Shown in pieces: positions 45,719 to 54,432 of a stretch of 64,000 bases of DNA. Source of the DNA: Rhodococcus sp. HNM0563 (GTDB taxonomy: Bacteria > Actinomycetota > Actinomycetes > Mycobacteriales > Mycobacteriaceae); contig NZ_JAASAF010000006.1 of assembly GCF_012726195.1 (NCBI RefSeq), positions 186,001 to 250,000 on the forward strand, written 5' to 3'. Each line of letters starts with the position of its first letter. The first letter of the stretch is position 1. Below the pieces are notes generated by a model. The model was given only the letters and a program-made list of their open reading frames with translations. It searched no databases and was not told where the DNA came from. Position numbers and translations under genes: made by a program.

Positions 45719-45801
45719 GGGCGAGTGGCGGAATGGCAGACGCGCTGGCTTCAGGTGCCAGTGTCCTTCGGGACGTGGGGGTTCAAGTCCCCCTTCGCCC
45801 A
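45719..45801 (+). tRNA. tRNA-Leu (anticodon CAG)
   Basis: An 83-nt class II tRNA. The acceptor GGGCGAG pairs with TTCGCCC, the anticodon stem CTGGC/GCCAG encloses TTCAGGT (CAG at 45752-45754), the variable arm is TGTCCTTCGGGACG, and the T arm is GGGGG-TTCAAGT-CCCCC. TACTGT at 45699-45704 may be its -10 element. The location after fhaA matches mycobacterial leuT. Accessory genes follow. Confidence 0.96.
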
Positions 45802-45827
45802 CAGTGAGTAGTTCCACGAACTACGAC

Positions 45828-45873
45828 GAATGAGGTCACGAACTCGAAAGAGGTCGTGACCTCATTCTTGTTT
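45828..45873 (+). terminator. terminator after tRNA-Leu
   Basis: A perfect 14-bp inverted repeat (45828-45841 with 45854-45867) followed by TTGTTT. It also closes the convergent cassette ending at 45891. Confidence 0.82.
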
Positions 45874-45890
45874 GCGGGTTGGTCGTCGAC

Positions 45891-46775
45891 TTACGCGAAT
45901 CGTCCCCGATCCAGCGTCGGGACGTCGATGGGAACTGTGTTGCGGCGGTACAGCCGCACCGAGCACTTGTCGACGGTGAGGAAATGGATCGGTTCCCAGT
46001 TGATTCCAGCGTCCTTCAGTGCCTTCTTGTGGGATTTCCACTCGTCGCGAAGCTGCTTCTTCTCGGTCGGGCTGAACGGGTGGTCGGTCAGTACGAGGAG
46101 GCGCACCCGCTTCGGCAACAGCGGCGATCCCTCGACGACCTCTAGACGAAACTGCTCGACGTCATCACACCACGCCTGCGACTTCTTGCACTTCGAGAGG
46201 AGCCTCCGTAGCGACTCGAATACCGGCCCTGCCAGTGCGTCGTGAACAGCGGGGCGGGAGAGTTTGCTGACGAGCCGCCGGCCGAGAATCAGCTCCTCCT
46301 CGATCGTGGCAAAGCCCTCGACGGGGTCATGTGCAGCGAGTAGGCCTTTGCTGACCGGGACAACCGCGCGCAGGTCCACAGCCCAGGCCGCTCCAACCGC
46401 GGGCGGCTGAGTCAGCCAGACGTACTCCGTCACCTGGTGGTCCTTGATTTGCTGGATCTTGTCCGTGGGGAAGGCCGATACGTCTCGCACCGGACACACG
46501 CTCACCAATGGGTGCCGCTTCGCGGGGCCACCCGCGATATCGCAAGTCTGCGAGACCACCACCGAGTATCCGGTGTCGCTCAGCAGCGCCGAACGCGCAC
46601 GCACCCCACCCACTGCTGCGCCGGCGGACCGTTCGCCGGTCACGGGGTCGTCCTGCCACGCGGGAACGATCCAGGTTCCCCGGTCCATTTTGAGGAGATG
46701 ACCCTGCCGCCACCGCTCGAGTGAGACAAGTGTGTCCGGATCCCACTGCTCCGGCAGGAGACGGTCGATTGTCAA
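45891..46775 (-). CDS. protein of unknown family with SQTCDI motif (third gene of TIGR04255 cassette)
   Basis: A 294-residue soluble protein, family not recognised. The N-terminal third carries VVVSQTCDIAGGPAKRHPL, with a Cys-Asp pair next to a strand, a pattern reminiscent of uncharacterised proteins from accessory loci. The rest is mixed alpha/beta with a basic helix (KKQLRDEWKSHKKALKDAG) near the C-terminus. There is no signal peptide or membrane helix. Its ATG overlaps the stop of the upstream HTH gene (ATGA), so it is coupled with it. An effector or modification role is possible but unproven. Confidence 0.7.
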   Translation of the reverse strand: MTIDRLLPEQWDPDTLVSLERWRQGHLLKMDRGTWIVPAWQDDPVTGERSAGAAVGGVRARSALLSDTGYSVVVSQTCDIAGGPAKRHPLVSVCPVRDVSAFPTDKIQQIKDHQVTEYVWLTQPPAVGAAWAVDLRAVVPVSKGLLAAHDPVEGFATIEEELILGRRLVSKLSRPAVHDALAGPVFESLRRLLSKCKKSQAWCDDVEQFRLEVVEGSPLLPKRVRLLVLTDHPFSPTEKKQLRDEWKSHKKALKDAGINWEPIHFLTVDKCSVRLYRRNTVPIDVPTLDRGRFA

Positions 46776-47521
46776 CGTGCGAATCCGTCCTCGACGTCTT
46801 CGGTAACCAAGGGCCCTCCGGAGCGGATGATCGGAGTGTCGATTTCCTCTGCGATTCCTTCAGCCACCGAAGTGCCGATCTCGCGCTGGGGGAGCGGAGT
46901 CCTGTCAACCGCCATGTCTACGAGGTCGTCGAACCTGGCGTCGAGCAGGGCATCGATCCGCTGCGGGTCGCCCCGGAGCCACCGAGCCAGCGGCTGATCG
47001 ACGGTGTTGTGGAGATCGTCGACCGCATCCGCGAGCTCCCACAGTCGACCCAGGCTGGCGACACGAGGTCGGCTTCCAGCCGGCTTGTCCGCCCACGAAT
47101 GGAAGGTCCGCTTGCGGATGCCGGTGGCCTTGAACATTTCCTTCTGTGTGAGACCAAGGTCGGTCCGGAGCTGTTCGAACGCATCGACGACGTCCGCGGT
47201 TTCGGTGACCTTTCGAGTCTCCGCTCGCACAGTGTCGATGAATGTGTATGGGGTGGTCATCCACAATGCCGAGCCCGGCAGGTCGGTCTTGCCGTCGACG
47301 TATTTGATGACGGCGACATGAACTTGTTCCCGGCGTGAGGTATCGAGCGCGCTGGAGAAGTGCGCAGCCACATTTCTCAGCCCAGATGAGGAACTCATCG
47401 CCATGAAGGTGCTGGACCAGTAGGTGTCCTCAGCGTGTACCGGGTGCAACCCCAGCCGATCGGACCTCGAGGACGACGACCGGAGTACCCGTGAGCCGGT
47501 CGGCTCGTACATGATCGTCAT
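46772..47521 (-). CDS. HTH protein resembling Xre/MbcA-type antitoxins
   Basis: A 249-residue protein. The first 75 residues are variable and Ser-rich. A helix-turn-helix follows around residues 115-135 (FEQLRTDLGLTQKEMFKATG, then IRKRTFHSWAD), and then LGRLWELADAVDDLHNTVDQ and RWLRGDPQRIDALLDARFD. This resembles the toxin-binding domain of Xre/MbcA/ParS antitoxins. It could bind DNA and autoregulate the cassette. The ATG overlaps the TIGR04255 stop. An internal start such as the Met near residue 40 is possible. Homology is inferred from pattern only. Confidence 0.66.
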   Translation of the reverse strand: MTIMYEPTGSRVLRSSSSRSDRLGLHPVHAEDTYWSSTFMAMSSSSGLRNVAAHFSSALDTSRREQVHVAVIKYVDGKTDLPGSALWMTTPYTFIDTVRAETRKVTETADVVDAFEQLRTDLGLTQKEMFKATGIRKRTFHSWADKPAGSRPRVASLGRLWELADAVDDLHNTVDQPLARWLRGDPQRIDALLDARFDDLVDMAVDRTPLPQREIGTSVAEGIAEEIDTPIIRSGGPLVTEDVEDGFAR

Positions 47522-48372
47522 CCTTCGCCTCCCTCTCGAAGCTCCTTCAGGTATGCCTCGGTCACCGATGCCTGGAACAGGGACAGCGCGGTGCGGTTCA
47601 GGCGCTCGGCCGACATGACGACCTCCCGTACGTCGAATGTGAAGGAAGAGTGGCGGAACACGTCGGTGTCGAGAAGGTAATGCACGTTCTTGCCGGAATC
47701 GTCCTGAATCGGCCCATGGCGCAGCAACGCGCCGTGATGGTCGTCGAGGCGGATCTCCACCTGCTGTTGGGCGCCTCGGACGCTATTGCCGAAGATTGGG
47801 TTGAGCACAGGTCCGAGGAGGGTGTCATGGATCCGACCACGCCATGCCTCTGCGGAGTGGATGCCGCGGTCTTGGAAGCGGTCGACGTACCGCAGGCCGA
47901 TGCGGTGCACCAGCGAAGGTTTGATCAACAGTCGGAGTGACTCGAGCAGAACGGTGAGCGGAGTTTTCAGGCTGGTGCTCCAACGCTCATAGCGGTTGAT
48001 CTGGAGGATCAGGATGTCGGGCATGAGCGTGATGTGGCCGGAACCGTCCGCTGACACGACCTGCCACCCCTGCGATTCCGACGCCACCTGGGAGGCGCCG
48101 TTGGAACCGAAGTCGATCCGCATCTGCTGCTGGCGGGCTTGTTGGATGGTCGGGTAGTCGATCCCGGTGTTGTCGACGAGGTTGTCGCGAAGCGTGGCCG
48201 CGGCTTCTGGGGCGATCTCTTCTACGGGAGACGTGAAGCGAATCTCGATCACCGCGGCTTCGAGTGGGGCGTTTCCGAGCAGCGTGGGATCGGCAGGGCG
48301 GAGCTCCCCCAAAGGGATGTCCTCGGCAGGCTGAAGTGTGTGCGGATCGATCGTCATATGCGTCCCGTCCAT
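47518..48372 (-). CDS. TIGR04255 family protein (first gene of cassette)
   Basis: A 284-residue soluble protein. LLGNAPLEAAVIEIRF near residues 31-46 is the typical N-terminal signature of the sporadically distributed TIGR04255 family. The middle has LILQINRYERWSTSLKTPL and HRIGLRYVDRF, also family-like. I know of no established biochemical function. The ATG at 48372 is preceded by AAGGTG inside a direct repeat; an ATG at 48357 is an alternative. It leads a three-gene, overlap-linked operon. Confidence 0.8.
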   Translation of the reverse strand: MDGTHMTIDPHTLQPAEDIPLGELRPADPTLLGNAPLEAAVIEIRFTSPVEEIAPEAAATLRDNLVDNTGIDYPTIQQARQQQMRIDFGSNGASQVASESQGWQVVSADGSGHITLMPDILILQINRYERWSTSLKTPLTVLLESLRLLIKPSLVHRIGLRYVDRFQDRGIHSAEAWRGRIHDTLLGPVLNPIFGNSVRGAQQQVEIRLDDHHGALLRHGPIQDDSGKNVHYLLDTDVFRHSSFTFDVREVVMSAERLNRTALSLFQASVTEAYLKELREGGEG

Positions 48373-48374
48373 TG

Positions 48375-48395
48375 AGATGCACCTTAGATGCACCT
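48375..48395. repeat. 10-bp tandem direct repeat upstream of TIGR04255 cassette
   Basis: AGATGCACCT occurs twice (48375-48384 and 48386-48395) with an 11-bp period. It covers the ribosome binding site of the first cassette gene. A TTGACT on the minus strand (48413-48408) lies just upstream as a possible -35. It is a candidate operator for the cassette's HTH protein. Confidence 0.55.
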
Positions 48396-48584
48396 ACCGA
48401 CGAGTGTAGTCAATATGTCGAGAAGGGCAGCGGGAGCGGTAGGTCAGATGGACGCCTACTGGACCACTGCTCCGGCCGTCGAAGGTGGATCGAACCCAGC
48501 CGACCGATTGCACACTCGCATTGCCCCGGGACGGACTGACCGCGCGTACCCGGCAACCGGTCACCTCTCCACATTGATCTGTGT

Positions 48585-49952
48585 TCAGCTGAGCAGTGCA
48601 GTCAGCCAGGCGGCGACGAGCAGTACTTCCGGTCCGCGGAGCCATTGCCGGACCAGATCGACCGGAATCTGGCCGACAGCGGTTTCGAGGATCAGACCGT
48701 CGTAGCGGATCGACGGCCGCGTCCGTACCCGGTAGGCCGCACCACAGCCACCTGCCAGACCGATCACCAGCGTCGCCGCGGTACCACCACTCAGGAAAGT
48801 GGTCGACACGGCGACCAATGTTGCTGCGACGCTCGGTACTACAGTCAGCGGCAACAGGATCTGCCGGTCAGCGGAACCGAGTAATGCACCGAAGTCACGC
48901 TCACGCAAGATATCCCGTAGTCCCGCACTGAAGAGCATCGTGACGACGAACACCGCGGCGAGTTGCAGCACGGCTACCGCTGGTGGGGTCACCGCCATCG
49001 GCGCGACGGCCACAATGCCGACGACACTGCACGCCAACAGCAACGATACCGGTCGGCGACGGTGGCGAAGCAGGTCGGATTCGATGAGTGCCCGTGACAG
49101 ACCACCGCGTATCGGGCGTGTCCGACGCCGTCCGATACGTTGCCAAGCCTTCTGTTCGAGCATCCCGAGTAGCACTGAAGGATCCAATGCGGTGACGGAG
49201 GCGGACACGGCCGCCGTGGTGCCTGCTCCGGCCGTCAGGTCCGCTGCTCCGATCCTGCCGCAGCACGCCACCGCGCAGGCCCCGACGGCCACGGCGGTCG
49301 CCCCGACTGCTGTGACAAGCCACCAGTTCATCGGCATGGGAACGTTCACCCCGGCGATCGCAGCGACAACGGCGGCGACTGACCCCAGCAGCGCAACCCG
49401 GATCAGGTCGGTCACTATGCGCAGCGGGAGTATCCGACACTGAGTAAGAACAGATAGCGCAACCACGCTGCAGCCGACAGCTGCCATGAGAACGGCGAAT
49501 GGCACCCACGTCGTCAACGCTGCCGCGAAAGCTGCAATACGACCCACAAGCGCGCCGACCACTGCGCCACATCCGAGCGCAAGTGCTACTCGTCGGCGTA
49601 GCAGAGCGCCGCGATCGAGGGGCGCCGCTACCAGCCAGAAACCGAACTCGGCACTGGTGCTCACCGGACCGATCGCCCGCACGAAAGCGAGCCCGACCGC
49701 CGCAGCGGCCGCGGTAACAGCCCATCCCCACGTCGATGTCCACGGCTGCCCGGTGACCCACACGTTCAGCGGGGTGAGCACGGTCGGTGGCAGCGTGAAC
49801 AGCCACCACAGCAGGCCGGCACCGACGTACAACCCGAGTGTCCCGAGCACGAACGTCGCGGCACGACCGCCGACCGGCGTGTGCTGTCGTTCGAAGTCAC
49901 GGATGAGCATGCGGATCGACCGCACCGAAACGGCGCTGCGTGTCATCACCAT
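48585..49952 (-). CDS. ABC transporter permease-like membrane protein
   Basis: A 455-residue hydrophobic protein with about 10-12 membrane helices and an Arg-rich loop near residue 290-310 (QKAWQRIGRRRTRPIRGG). The start overlaps the ATP-binding gene stop (ATGGTGA), which shows coupling to it. It has no clear subfamily signature, though it looks like ABC-2-type or DUF6297-like permeases of actinobacteria. The substrate is unknown; export is more likely than import because no binding protein is nearby. Confidence 0.75.
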   Translation of the reverse strand: MVMTRSAVSVRSIRMLIRDFERQHTPVGGRAATFVLGTLGLYVGAGLLWWLFTLPPTVLTPLNVWVTGQPWTSTWGWAVTAAAAAVGLAFVRAIGPVSTSAEFGFWLVAAPLDRGALLRRRVALALGCGAVVGALVGRIAAFAAALTTWVPFAVLMAAVGCSVVALSVLTQCRILPLRIVTDLIRVALLGSVAAVVAAIAGVNVPMPMNWWLVTAVGATAVAVGACAVACCGRIGAADLTAGAGTTAAVSASVTALDPSVLLGMLEQKAWQRIGRRRTRPIRGGLSRALIESDLLRHRRRPVSLLLACSVVGIVAVAPMAVTPPAVAVLQLAAVFVVTMLFSAGLRDILRERDFGALLGSADRQILLPLTVVPSVAATLVAVSTTFLSGGTAATLVIGLAGGCGAAYRVRTRPSIRYDGLILETAVGQIPVDLVRQWLRGPEVLLVAAWLTALLS

Positions 49953-50596
49953 GAGTCTGCCTCGACGACCTGATCGGCGACTGTATCCACCAGGACGCCG
50001 TCGTGCGAGACAATCAATACTGTTCCGCCTGAATGTTTTTCGTCGATGAGGGCAGATGCCAGCCATGTGCGACCGGCCTCGTCGAGATGTTGTTCCGGTT
50101 CGTCGAGAACCAACAGTCGTCGGGGCCGGACGAACGCCGACGCCAACGCCAACCGGTGACGCTGACCGCTCGACAAGGTCACCGGGAGTTGGTCTGCTAC
50201 CGGTAGCAGACCGACGTCTGCAAGGACCTGTGTTGCCGCTTCGAACGGGTCGGGGACCTCGTGACCGGTCGCGACGAGTTGTAGGTGTTCGTGTGCTGTG
50301 AGGTGAGCGAAGGTAGGCACCTCGCCGAACACCGCGGCGACATTCCTGCGGAACGCCGGAGAGGTTTCGTCGACTGATGTGCCATCGATTTCGATGGCGC
50401 CGTCGTCGAGACGATCGGCTCCGACGACGCACCTGAGCAGAGTCGACTTGCCTGCTCCGTTTGCGCCGACCACGGCACAGCATCGGCCGACGGCAACGTC
50501 GAAGCCGACTCCGGCCAGGACCGTCACATCTCCGAACCGACGGTGGGCATTGCGAATGGACACGGCGGGTACGCCGTGCAGATCAGGGGTGTGCAT
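49946..50596 (-). CDS. ABC transporter ATP-binding protein
   Basis: A 216-residue ATPase with Walker A GANGAGKST, Q-loop region AAVFGEVPTFAHLTAHEHL, a degenerate signature LSSGQRHRLALASAF, Walker B RLLVLDEPEQHLDE and switch SHDGVLVD. The short form is typical of drug, peptide or antimicrobial exporters. ATG at 50596 has GGAG at good spacing; an ATG at 50614 has its GAGG too close. It is coupled to the permease downstream. Confidence 0.9.
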   Translation of the reverse strand: MHTPDLHGVPAVSIRNAHRRFGDVTVLAGVGFDVAVGRCCAVVGANGAGKSTLLRCVVGADRLDDGAIEIDGTSVDETSPAFRRNVAAVFGEVPTFAHLTAHEHLQLVATGHEVPDPFEAATQVLADVGLLPVADQLPVTLSSGQRHRLALASAFVRPRRLLVLDEPEQHLDEAGRTWLASALIDEKHSGGTVLIVSHDGVLVDTVADQVVEADSW

Positions 50597-50683
50597 GAAG
50601 GGGTCTCCACTCATCCTCGGCAAGGCAAACACAGGGTGAGGAGGGACCGTCGAACAGTGAGATGGATCGTTCTGCGGTCCCCG

Positions 50684-51058
50684 CTAAGGGGAACCGGGCG
50701 CGCGCGGACGGGGCCGACCTGCGGTGTCGGGGTGAGAGTGTCGGCGGAACTCACCGTGTAGACGTTGTTCCTCGCCTGTAGGGCCTCGAATGCTCCTACC
50801 GAAGGAAAACAGCGGATCGTCGACACGGACGGCGAGCAACAGTGTGGTGACAGCGACGACCGCAACCAGCAGACTCGCCAGCAACGCCGAGGTGTCTCCG
50901 GTGGAGATCGCTGCGACCGGCACGGCCAACGCGACAATCCAGGACAGAACGAAGAAAGCTACCTCCGCCCCGTTCCTCCACCCGTAACACACCCTCGTGA
51001 GTCTATTCGGCGCCGAGGCCAGATGCACCTTGCCAGGCCTGATTTCGGTGGCCGTCAC
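50684..51058 (-). CDS. small two-helix membrane protein upstream of ABC transporter
   Basis: A 124-residue protein. A basic N-terminus is followed by two hydrophobic helices (AEVAFFVLSWIVALAVPVAA and ALLASLLVAVVAVTTLLLAV, about residues 33-75), then a charged Arg/His/Pro-rich tail. No family is recognised. The GTG start is uncertain, with only a weak ribosome binding site. It lies 87 bp upstream of the ABC ATPase on the same strand and may be part of that transport operon. Confidence 0.5.
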   Translation of the reverse strand: MTATEIRPGKVHLASAPNRLTRVCYGWRNGAEVAFFVLSWIVALAVPVAAISTGDTSALLASLLVAVVAVTTLLLAVRVDDPLFSFGRSIRGPTGEEQRLHGEFRRHSHPDTAGRPRPRAPGSP

Positions 51059-51686
51059 CGTCCGGCGCCGTGTCGTCACATGCCTGAACACATGTTCGAG
51101 TTGACGCGCGTCACACCACGTGGGACCATCCCTGCACCGACCTGAATACAGGTCGACCCCGGCTGGTGGTGGAACACCGAACCGGGGTCTGGGCACACGA
51201 CAGATTGGACCTGTCATGCACCGTAGGGTGGAGTCTATCCACACGCCCCCAGGGGGCGCTTCTCATGGTTCGGTCTTCGATACCGACCTTCTTCTTCACA
51301 CCCCGCCGGGGTCTTCGCTGACGTCCTGACTTCGTGAGCCTCTCGACCTACCCGTCGAGGGGCTCAAGGTGTTTGTGCTACGACGTGTGCGCGGGCCGGT
51401 CCGGTAGCCGCGGCACGTCGGGCATTCGTCGCTCGCCTCCCAGAGTCCGACGTCAGCGCTTCGACGCTGCGCGCAGGGGTGTCATTCCCGTGCGTGAAAC
51501 CGACTGGGCGCCAGTATCTTCGTCTCCGCAGCTGGCGGTGGAGCACCCGCTCGTGAGGGTCGACACGAACGACCGGGTCCAGCGTGAGCCGCACGTCTTC
51601 TGCGACGTGGGGCCAGAAGCGTTGGCCGAGATGGTCTATCGGGGTATGGCGACCGGGCAGCTGTGGGGAAGGGGCCGAAGGCAAGC
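51059..51686. other. 628-bp region without a confident gene
   Basis: Open frames exist on both strands but none shows recognisable protein features or a good ribosome binding site. Visible structures are a hairpin near 51241-51260 (CACGCCCCC paired with GGGGGCG) and a 12-bp inverted repeat at 51336-51347 with 51354-51365. Both could be terminators. The segment 51364-51684, minus strand, may be a decayed gene. Confidence 0.5.
51336..51365. terminator. hairpin in the 51-kb intergenic region
   Basis: GAGCCTCTCGAC pairs with GTCGAGGGGCTC (one G-T pair) around a 6-nt loop. No T run. Confidence 0.45.
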
Positions 51687-52607
51687 TCAGCGACCCGTAG
51701 GGTCTCCGCTACCGCCCTCCACCAGACGGGAGATTCCGTCGAGCATCGTCGCGAGTGCCGTGGTGAACAGGACGTCGAGATCGAAGTCCCCGGTGGCCCC
51801 GAGGAACACCTTCGCCGAATACGGGTACGGGCCGGATTCGATGAGCGCAGTGCCGCGGTCGTGATGGCGGCGCATCCAACGGTCCTGGTCCATACCGGTT
51901 TCCGCCTGTTCGTACGCCTCCGTCTCGAGGCTGGCGGCCGTGCCGTGTACCAGATTGAACAACGCGATGTGAAGGACGAACACGCGGTCGGGGCTCAGCC
52001 CCAGTTCGGAGAGCACCCGCAGGTTCCATTCCGAATAGCGCAGCTGGTTCGGCCCCGCATAGGGCCGTGTCAGGGACGAAGTGCGCGCCAGCCACGGATG
52101 TCTCCGGTACACACTCCACAGCGCGGCCATCGACACTTCGAGTTGCTGCCGCCAGGTGCCTTCCGGTACGTCCGGGAGGGTGATGTCCCCGAAGGCTGCG
52201 TCCCGCATCAGCAGAAACAGCTCCTCCTTGTTCACGACGTGCCGGTACAGCGACATGGGCGCAAGGTCGAGCTCGGCGGCGATGCGTCGCATCGACACGG
52301 CCGCGATGCCCTCGGTATCGGCGATCCGCATGGCGCACCGCACGATCAGTGCTCGCCGCGTGAATTGTAGGACGGCAGGCTCGGTGACGTCGGTGGAGGT
52401 CACGGAAACCACGGTGCCGACGCCGGGCACCACTTCGACAAGGCCGCGACTGCGCAGTTCGGCCAATGCCTTGGTAGCGGTGGCCATGGCGACCCCCCAC
52501 TCGGCGACGATCTTCCTGGTCGACGGAACGAGCTGCCCAGGACGAAGGGAACCCGAGACGATGCGGTCGCGCAGCGCTTCGGCGATCTGTAGGTAGGGCG
52601 GGTTCAT
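51687..52607 (-). CDS. GntR-TetR fusion transcriptional regulator
   Basis: A 306-residue regulator with two DNA-binding domains. A GntR-type winged helix (residues 1-70: YLQIAEALRDRIVSGSLRPG, then VPSTRKIVAEWGVAMATATK) precedes a TetR-type HTH (about 85-130: GIAAVSMRRIAAELDLAPMS, then LYRHVVNKEEL) with a TetR C-terminal ligand-binding domain. It is divergent from a FAD monooxygenase whose promoter region has three ACTAGT-centred repeats, so it probably represses that gene and itself until a ligand binds. Confidence 0.9.
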   Translation of the reverse strand: MNPPYLQIAEALRDRIVSGSLRPGQLVPSTRKIVAEWGVAMATATKALAELRSRGLVEVVPGVGTVVSVTSTDVTEPAVLQFTRRALIVRCAMRIADTEGIAAVSMRRIAAELDLAPMSLYRHVVNKEELFLLMRDAAFGDITLPDVPEGTWRQQLEVSMAALWSVYRRHPWLARTSSLTRPYAGPNQLRYSEWNLRVLSELGLSPDRVFVLHIALFNLVHGTAASLETEAYEQAETGMDQDRWMRRHHDRGTALIESGPYPYSAKVFLGATGDFDLDVLFTTALATMLDGISRLVEGGSGDPTGR

Positions 52608-52622
52608 CGGGCTCCTCCAGCT

Positions 52623-52729
52623 GTACTAGTGCAGTGCGCACATCTGTCCTGAATGTTCAGGGCCGTACTAGTGCACTGACTCCGAGAATCACTGTTTTCG
52701 CTGTTCAGATCACTAGTAGTGCGCATGCG
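52623..52729. promoter_or_regulatory. operator candidates for the GntR-TetR regulator
   Basis: The divergent promoter holds GTACTAGTGCA (52623-52633), GTACTAGTGCACTG (52665-52678) and CACTAGTAGTGCGCA (from 52711), all built on ACTAGT with GTGC flanks. TAGATT at 52737-52742 could be the monooxygenase -10, which puts the third copy at its -35. Confidence 0.65.
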
Positions 52730-52796
52730 TACATCGTAGATTCACCAGTGGGCCCCAGAACAGTCGAACGGCCCGACAAGACGAGAAGGAGTCGAG

Positions 52797-54029
52797 ATGT
52801 CGCACCGCCGTAGCGCCCTCATCAGCGGAGCCGGAATTGCCGGACCCGCCCTCGCCTACTGGCTCAACGAATACGGATGGCAGGTCACGGTGGTCGAAGC
52901 CGCGCCCGGCATCCGACCCGGCGGACAGACCGTCGACCTCCGCGGCGCCGGAAGAACCGTCATCGAAAGGATGGGGCTCATGCCGGCAGCCCGCGCGGCA
53001 TGCGTGGAACAGAAAGGGATCGCCTGGGTCGACGCCTCGGGCAGGCACCGCTCCGAGATGCCCGTCGACGCGTTCGGCGGCGACGGCATCGTGAGCGAGG
53101 TCGAAATCCTCCGCGGGGATCTTGCGTCGCTTCTGTACTCGGCCGCAGATGATCACGTCGAGTACCTCTTCGGTACTCGCATCACCGCGCTCGACGACAA
53201 CGGCGACGAGGTGACGGTCACGCTGTCCGACGGCACCGTTCGCACCGTCGATCTCGTATTCGGCGCCGACGGCCCGCATTCGGCGGTGCGCCGCACAGTA
53301 TTCGGGCCCGAGAAGGACGTCGTGCATCCCGTCGGTGGCTACACCGCCTGGTTCACTGCGCCGAGCACGTCGATGGACACACAGGGCTGGTACGAGATGT
53401 TCCAGGCCCCAGGCGGACTGGTCGCATCGATCCGCCCCGATACCGATCCCACGCGAATGAAGGCATCACTGGCATTCGCATCCGAACCCCTGATGTACGA
53501 CCGCAACGATATCGACGCTCAACGCAGCCTCATCGCCGAACATTTCGCCGGTACCGGCTGGCACGCACCACAGTTGGCCGAGGCGGCGCGCACCGCCGAG
53601 GACTTCTACCTCGACGCGCTCGTCCAGGTGCGGATGGACAGCTGGACGAGCGGACGCGTCGCGCTCGTCGGGGACGCCGGCTACTGCCCCTGCCCGCTCA
53701 CGGGCATGGGAACCAGCCTGGCACTCGTGGGTGCGTACGTCCTCGCCGGTGAATTGGCAGCAGCCGACGGCGATCACCGCCGCGCCTTCGCGCGTTACGA
53801 GCAGGTCCTGCGCCCGTACGTGGAGCAGGGGCAACAGATGCCGGGTGGTGGCATGAAGATGTATGCGCCGAAAAGCGCCTTCGTGATCGGCCTCGGTCAG
53901 ATGCTCAACCGCGCCATCACCAGTCGCGTCCTCCAGCCGCTGGCGCGGAAGATGTTCTTCTCCCACGCGGAGAACATCGAACTCCCCAACTATTCGACCG
54001 CGCGCGAACAGCAGACGTCCGAACAGTAG
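52797..54029 (+). CDS. FAD-dependent monooxygenase
   Basis: A 410-residue flavoprotein of the PHBH/TetX-like class A group. GAGIAGPALAYWLNE (residues 11-25) binds FAD ADP-ribose, FGADGPHSAVRR is the DG motif, and GDAGYCPCPLTGMGTSLAL is the GD motif near residue 298. It would hydroxylate an aromatic or polyketide-like compound, or a drug. GAAGGAG precedes the ATG. The divergent regulator suggests substrate-inducible expression. Confidence 0.92.
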   Translation: MSHRRSALISGAGIAGPALAYWLNEYGWQVTVVEAAPGIRPGGQTVDLRGAGRTVIERMGLMPAARAACVEQKGIAWVDASGRHRSEMPVDAFGGDGIVSEVEILRGDLASLLYSAADDHVEYLFGTRITALDDNGDEVTVTLSDGTVRTVDLVFGADGPHSAVRRTVFGPEKDVVHPVGGYTAWFTAPSTSMDTQGWYEMFQAPGGLVASIRPDTDPTRMKASLAFASEPLMYDRNDIDAQRSLIAEHFAGTGWHAPQLAEAARTAEDFYLDALVQVRMDSWTSGRVALVGDAGYCPCPLTGMGTSLALVGAYVLAGELAAADGDHRRAFARYEQVLRPYVEQGQQMPGGGMKMYAPKSAFVIGLGQMLNRAITSRVLQPLARKMFFSHAENIELPNYSTAREQQTSEQ

Positions 54030-54060
54030 CGATCCACCCGGTAAGGGGATCGATGACAGG

Positions 54061-54432
54061 TCACCCGCCCGCGCGCTCGGCGAGGCTCAGCCCGACCAGC
54101 AGCACCACCACGATCGTCGTGGCACCGAGGAGCGGCCACACCCACATGCGTGCTCGCCGTCGCGCTGCACGGACGATACCCGCAACAGTGCCGATGCAGG
54201 CCACAGCAATTCCTCCCCACGTGACTGCGAATGCGGCGGTGAGATAACCCTCCTGGCAGCCTTCGGGGCCGCACGAATCCATCCCCATCGGAAACAGCAT
54301 GGAGAAGAAGAACGCAACGGCCGCGAAAACGATGGTCACGATGACGAACAGAACGGTCACGGCGGTATCGATCGTGGCGGGAGCGGAGCTGCGCGGGTCT
54401 TCGTCGCCGCGGCTGTGGCTCATCGAAGTCAT
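54061..54432 (-). CDS. hypothetical three-helix membrane protein
   Basis: A 123-residue protein with three membrane helices (about 24-47, 66-87 and 96-115). A short extracellular loop contains two Cys (DSCGPEGCQEG). The family is not recognised; related small proteins are frequent in Nocardiaceae. It is convergent with the monooxygenase gene. An alternative start at 54423 gives MSHSRGDE. Confidence 0.7.
   Translation of the reverse strand: MTSMSHSRGDEDPRSSAPATIDTAVTVLFVIVTIVFAAVAFFFSMLFPMGMDSCGPEGCQEGYLTAAFAVTWGGIAVACIGTVAGIVRAARRRARMWVWPLLGATTIVVVLLVGLSLAERAGG

Follow-up and report, generated by a model that had tools for sequence, protein, structure and literature searches.

The three genes described here lie in Rhodococcus sp. 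HNM0563, within a stretch of 64,000 nucleotides (contig NZ_JAASAF010000006.1, positions 186,001 to 250,000; hereafter the window), where they stand together on the minus strand between a tRNA-Leu gene and an unrelated ABC locus (Table 1). They are named A, B and C in the order of their transcription. An alternative GTG start at 48393 would lengthen A to 291 residues. The original prediction, made from the letters of the window, had seen ATGA overlaps at both junctions; A and B indeed overlap by ATGA, whereas B and C share TTGA, with C starting at TTG. The tight coupling that it proposed is common across loci for A and B, where an in-frame four-base stop/start overlap is found at 19 of 27 junctions (ATGA in 14) and at 13 of 21 beyond the window's clade, but it is not general for B and C, as only 9 of 26 junctions (4 of 20 beyond the clade) have it. 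The terminator placed after tRNA-Leu would correspond to a hairpin at 45850-45863, which is one of three found where shuffled sequences give 2.2.

Table 1 Features of the three-gene locus in the window
Feature	Position	Strand	Description
tRNA-Leu	45719-45802	+	flanks the trio on one side
Gene C	45891-46775	-	SQTCDI protein, 294 residues, TTG start; predicted effector
Gene B	46772-47521	-	249 residues, Xre/MbcA-like helix-turn-helix; predicted repressor and antitoxin
Gene A	47518-48357	-	TIGR04255 family protein, 279 residues, ATG start at 48357
Operator-like tandem repeat	48375..48395	-	two AGGTGCATCT copies, start-to-start 11, just upstream of A
Membrane/ABC genes	from 48585		flank the trio on the other side

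The three genes form a conserved unit. A query of named genomes with C returned nine mycobacterial loci, and A, B and C occur in the same order in all nine, with B and C broken across frames in one of them (L012) and C in another (L010); L012 also carries about 1.4 kb of extra DNA directly before gene A. The order A-B-C persists even where identity falls to about 20%, so the arrangement is more than chance, and the trio passes, in several bacterial groups, the test of conservation that the original prediction had set for itself. Its occurrence is patchy. Within the window's own family, C is present in 4 of 201 genomes including the window's and is missing from all 14 other genus members there; two of the other three carriers are 76-77% identical, and in the remaining one (G042) the A-B-C trio is 21-27% identical. 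At the level of the class, the C profile matched 6 of 296 genomes, four with the trio and two (G420, G272) with only C-like fragments; the G420 contig stops 0.3 kb ahead of its fragment, so that A and B cannot be judged. The two C-like fragments lie on contigs under 4 kb, at L041 2653-3189 and L042 3557-3989, and carry FQGD(L/I)F together with a PHPC or PQPC motif. Upstream, L042 shows neither A nor B within 3.5 kb, and L041 breaks off after 0.3 kb. The C superfamily may extend beyond the trio.

Gene A belongs to TIGR04255, as had been proposed, with an E-value of 1.3e-28 and 100.5 bits against a cut-off of 30 over model positions 4-251 of 252 (NCBIfam). The short name of this family in NCBIfam labels it as sporadic, and its entry gives no function. 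Neither Pfam nor NCBIfam shows a SecB match for window A, and sequence comparison gave no convincing solved relatives for either A or C. Of 197 genomes examined in the class, 17 contain TIGR04255, and relatives of B and C stand beside it in 11 of these (G000, G147, G288, G300, G238, G216, G352, G208, G325, G210 and G204; C lies in the opposite orientation in G210, and in G204, on a short contig, B and C were recognised by frame motifs). C is hence nearly always found with A and B, and A is also used elsewhere. On a Rhizobium sp. CB3060 plasmid (L059, 2147-7129), a TIGR04255 gene has two other partner genes, one of them NlpC/P60-peptidase-like by eye, and directly adjoins a multiubiquitin-ThiF-DUF6527 operon; TIGR04255 may therefore be a module with exchangeable effectors. 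Two distant TIGR04255 genes (L054 5039-5878 and L055 4645-5475) are each followed by two small genes unlike B and C, and perhaps represent another TIGR04255-based operon type.

The Xre/MbcA likeness of gene B noted originally is weak in window B alone, which matches Pfam PF20432 at E 0.008, below the cut-off, and NCBIfam models also only below threshold, but a profile of 13 B proteins matches solved structures of an Xre/MbcA/ParS-type antitoxin (8qnl, E 9.3e-6) and of MbcA (6fkg, E 6.2e-4), as well as HigA-2 antitoxins. B carries about 110 residues ahead of the helix-turn-helix (HTH). In the B proteins of L056, L060, L067 and L068 this N-terminal part looks hydrophobic and rich in small residues, unlike in window B, and in several plasmid and viral members it is possibly a membrane or hairpin segment.

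Directly before A, the window and its clade have a 10-base near-palindrome, AGGTGCATCT, repeated at an 11-base spacing. The same tandem repeat precedes A in L005, L006, L009, L011, L013 and L015 (one copy reading AGGTGCACCT in L009 and L015), a recurrence to be read with the common descent of the clade in mind. Beyond it, in a set of 21 more distant loci that leaves out the window's own clade, the near copies L062 and L066, and L065, the pattern TTYAC-N5-7-TTYAC occurs within 110 bases before A in eight loci, where 0.01 per 21 is expected from control stretches and 0.036 from shuffled upstreams; this pattern was picked after inspection, and the control stretches, here and in the next test, are largely coding DNA. 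A pattern-free test found a near-perfect tandem repeat at 10-12 bases in 6 of the 21 (control mean 0.375, maximum 2 in 40 draws), and the remaining loci fail both tests. The spacing agrees with a dimeric regulator that occupies adjacent sites along one helix face, and B is the candidate protein for this role. For comparison, PMC12204516 reports for Pseudomonas putida that the Xre-RES complex binds a repeat within the promoter region of its own genes.

Gene C is unrecognised, in line with the original prediction: no Pfam or NCBIfam model comes near its cut-off with window C, and neither PADLOC nor PHROGs yields a match for it. The SQTCDI segment, picked out early as conserved-looking, is among the most conserved segments of the protein, and its cysteine (C78) is, together with G25, invariant in an alignment of 26 C members. 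A structure model compared with the PDB places residues of about 13-175 in the MazF/CcdB fold, with residues 176-294 as an extension without assigned fold; the matches listed for the model are MazF/CcdB-type, and the model shares the fold of the MazF/Kid/CcdB superfamily. The N-terminal domain of C is accordingly predicted to be a divergent member of this fold. That C might be a housekeeping enzyme, which the original prediction had named as the case that would speak against it, is unlikely given the lack of a family match and the patchy presence, and the predicted fold is that of a toxin.

These features point to a toxin-antitoxin-type module, because C is predicted to have a MazF-type toxin fold and B resembles a DNA-binding antitoxin. 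Since B directly precedes C, repeats lie before A, occurrence is patchy and mobile, and a third gene is conserved, the trio is probably a mobile, autoregulated three-gene module of this type with a third subunit. The toxin-antitoxin-type reading of the original prediction thereby gains support from the anatomy, the fold of C, the family of B, the operator-like repeats and the mobility. In such a module, C would be the effector, combining a MazF/Kid/CcdB-fold domain, a C-terminal extension and the invariant SQTCDI cysteine. B would bind the tandem repeats before A, repress the operon and keep C inactive. A would be a dedicated third subunit, most likely for control or sensing, either holding the B-C complex together or reporting a trigger. 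If the element is lost, a phage infects or some other stress arises, C would be released and growth would stop, as with MazF or CcdB. The toxicity of C and what it attacks, its neutralisation by B and/or A, the trigger, and the binding of B to the repeats are inferred, and of all these steps the part given to TIGR04255 has the least support.

Several observations weigh against this picture. The model of C is middling (mean predicted local distance difference test score, pLDDT, 71.3; predicted template modelling score, pTM, 0.53; residues 36-63 under 50), and an attempt to establish MazF kinship from sequence failed: profile-profile comparison (hhalign) of C with 28 PemK/MazF sequences, taken from 28 of 30 returned loci, gave probabilities of 0.2-1.8%, which is not significant. 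PF02452/PemK models match neither window C nor any of the 26 C members, and the MazF catalytic residues were not located in C. Usual toxin-antitoxin partners are shorter than C and B. Taken locus by locus, the repeats stand out little from shuffled sequence (p 0.01-0.14 within the clade of the window, about 0.05 in the window itself), many distant loci show no repeats, and the post hoc choice of the TTYAC pattern counts here as well. Beyond the infrequent B/C overlap, no B or C was seen beside A in six of the 17 TIGR04255 genomes (G029, G069, G085, G124, G364, G326), and in G272 neither A nor B occurs within the 3.5 kb that precede the C-like fragment.

The invariant glycine and cysteine, the tandem repeats ahead of A and the absence of sequence likeness between C and MazF families would also suit a non-toxic regulatory module, in which a MazF-like barrel with a conserved cysteine acts as a ligand or redox sensor controlling B as the repressor of a mobile element. 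The repeats precede the cassette itself, though, no other gene was noticed to accompany the trio across loci, and its patchy, mobile occurrence suits toxin-antitoxin or defence modules better, which makes this alternative quite improbable. Even less probable is a disguised RES-Xre (MbcTA-type) module that degrades NAD. The closest solved relatives of B do include Xre/MbcA antitoxins, whose known partners are RES toxins (PMC12204516, PMC12457610), but the 26 C members have no RES model among their Pfam matches (nor is there one for window C in NCBIfam), and the PDB matches listed for the model of C are of the MazF/CcdB type.

The mobility on which the toxin-antitoxin-type reading draws is seen in several kinds of carrier. 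A search of 72,556 plasmids with A returned seven records, six with A-B-C (from Kocuria, Chroococcidiopsis, Sinorhizobium, Sphingomonas and two Vibrio) and a Rhizobium plasmid with other partners. A relative of C likewise gave seven records, six with A-B-C, which add two Rhizobium etli plasmids, and a seventh with a C fragment only and no annotated A. In a phage collection, an A relative had three matches; the one region examined, an Acinetobacter prophage contig, has the trio near cI and methyltransferase genes. Ten IMG/VR contigs contain C, seven with the whole trio and three cut by the contig end. In the L069 contig, gene C reaches the end. Window C itself had no match in plasmids and phages, nor did the initial viral scans with close queries. 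In PHROGs, one A relative and one C relative match families of unknown function and two B relatives match regulator-type or other families; the window genes have no match.

Mycobacteroides franklinii, a Mycobacterium metagenome-assembled genome and Mycolicibacterium vanbaalenii share, in their records (L007, L008, L011 312-12879), an identical 12,568-base stretch bearing the trio, which starts inside or beside tRNA-Pro and adjoins an integrase-like gene. This identity across three different mycobacterial records makes recent transfer likely, with assembly contamination as the other explanation. In the window's genus, the tRNA-Leu block is present in 18 of 18 genomes, and the DNA after it is a variable site. 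In G146, one of the two closest siblings, less than 0.3 kb stands in place of about 8.2 kb that includes the trio (45871-54068). Thirteen more siblings likewise lack a DNA match to this stretch, so that none of the 14 sibling regions examined, of 17, matches positions 45,886-54,067; the variable stretch is thus larger than the cassette. It contains the trio, ABC genes, a GntR-like regulator and, judged by eye, a FAD monooxygenase, and no integrase was recognised among its listed open reading frames (ORFs), as read from the list without a profile scan. With the tRNA-Leu block in all 18 genomes and the larger stretch variable, tRNA-Leu as the integration site of the cassette is not supported. 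The tRNA-adjacent place, taken originally as a typical trait, is no general feature of the cassette.

The viral and plasmid carriers also raise the question of a defence role. The trio could be an anti-phage abortive-infection system, in which A senses a phage product, B serves as signal or regulatory adaptor, and C acts only upon infection, with no addiction function. Its presence in prophage and viral contigs and on plasmids is consistent with this, as are some neighbours: in L005 a large Type ISP-like restriction gene begins some 200 bases downstream of C, a short relative of it follows C in L015, which also has a GmrSD-like gene, a TIR gene adjoins the trio in L053, and the multiubiquitin-ThiF-DUF6527 operon stands beside the TIGR04255 gene of L059. 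Among the named neighbours, the L053 TIR match was displayed per protein and the others were placed by motif and phmmer matching. Across 18 trio loci, 81 neighbour ORFs matched 66 PADLOC models against 10 for 81 control ORFs, an excess that is only suggestive, since many of the 66 (25 of them displayed) are redundant matches on few proteins, the loci are few, and the controls, a random draw from picks in 20 loci on actinobacterial chromosomes only, are unmatched for mobile elements although viral contigs make up 5 of the 18 trio loci. The neighbour set comprised 81 of 92 picked ORFs; 12 were removed, 8 of those at ends of DNA stretches, and an antisense ORF was deliberately exchanged by hand for the TIR ORF of L053. 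Moreover, none of the window genes matches PADLOC-DB 2.0.0, and a scan of the relatives of A and C gave single weak matches, namely PDC-M20B at 0.0019 and Specificity_I at 0.0025 in one of 26 C members each and DrmC at 0.052 in one A relative. Solo TIGR04255 genes of mycobacterial relatives stand among ordinary-looking genes. A dedicated anti-phage system is unlikely in our view, and the defence-type role in the original prediction is no more than suggested, by some neighbourhoods. A bolder version, doubtful but worth keeping in view, is a widespread and so far undescribed anti-phage system with TIGR04255 as infection sensor, an Xre/MbcA-like repressor and inhibitor, and an effector of a new MazF/CcdB-barrel enzyme class in which the invariant cysteine replaces the MazF active site. 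If this were true, TIGR04255 would be a general sensor module that pairs with other effectors, and the neighbours in L059, L054 and L055 do differ.

Taken together, the trio looks like an undescribed toxin-antitoxin-type module. A full-text literature search, with subscription papers, preprints and supplements outside its reach, returned no paper containing TIGR04255, and none of the best-ranked matches on tripartite systems with MazF, Xre or CcdB resembled the trio by title or start of abstract. The operon link to an Xre/MbcA-like regulator and an effector of predicted MazF/CcdB fold gives TIGR04255 a testable role, the trio would add a tripartite type to the toxin-antitoxin field, and it marks a candidate defence module undetected by PADLOC-DB 2.0.0.

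With the tripartite toxin-antitoxin systems TAC (which has a SecB-like chaperone) and HipBST the trio shares a third dedicated protein in one operon with HTH and toxin-like proteins, but A is a TIGR04255 protein without recognised chaperone or kinase domain, and the effector differs. Like the RES-Xre modules (MbcTA, ParST and that of Pseudomonas putida), it has a B that resembles Xre/MbcA antitoxins by family profile and promoter-region repeats that suggest autoregulation, but its effector is predicted to be MazF/CcdB-like, it has three genes, and its B has about 110 residues before the HTH. MazEF/PemIK is a two-gene operon with an AbrB-like or RHH-like antitoxin. The trio resembles MazEF, PemIK (Kid) and CcdAB in the fold predicted for roughly the first 160 residues of C, in the DNA-binding partner gene directly before the toxin-like gene, and in its carriage on plasmids and islands. 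It differs from them in that C, at about 235-325 residues, has no PemK profile match but carries a QxCD or HPC segment as well as a large extension, in that B matches Xre/MbcA/HigA HTH structures by profile and is not of the MazE or CcdA type, and in having a third conserved gene, which is placed first.
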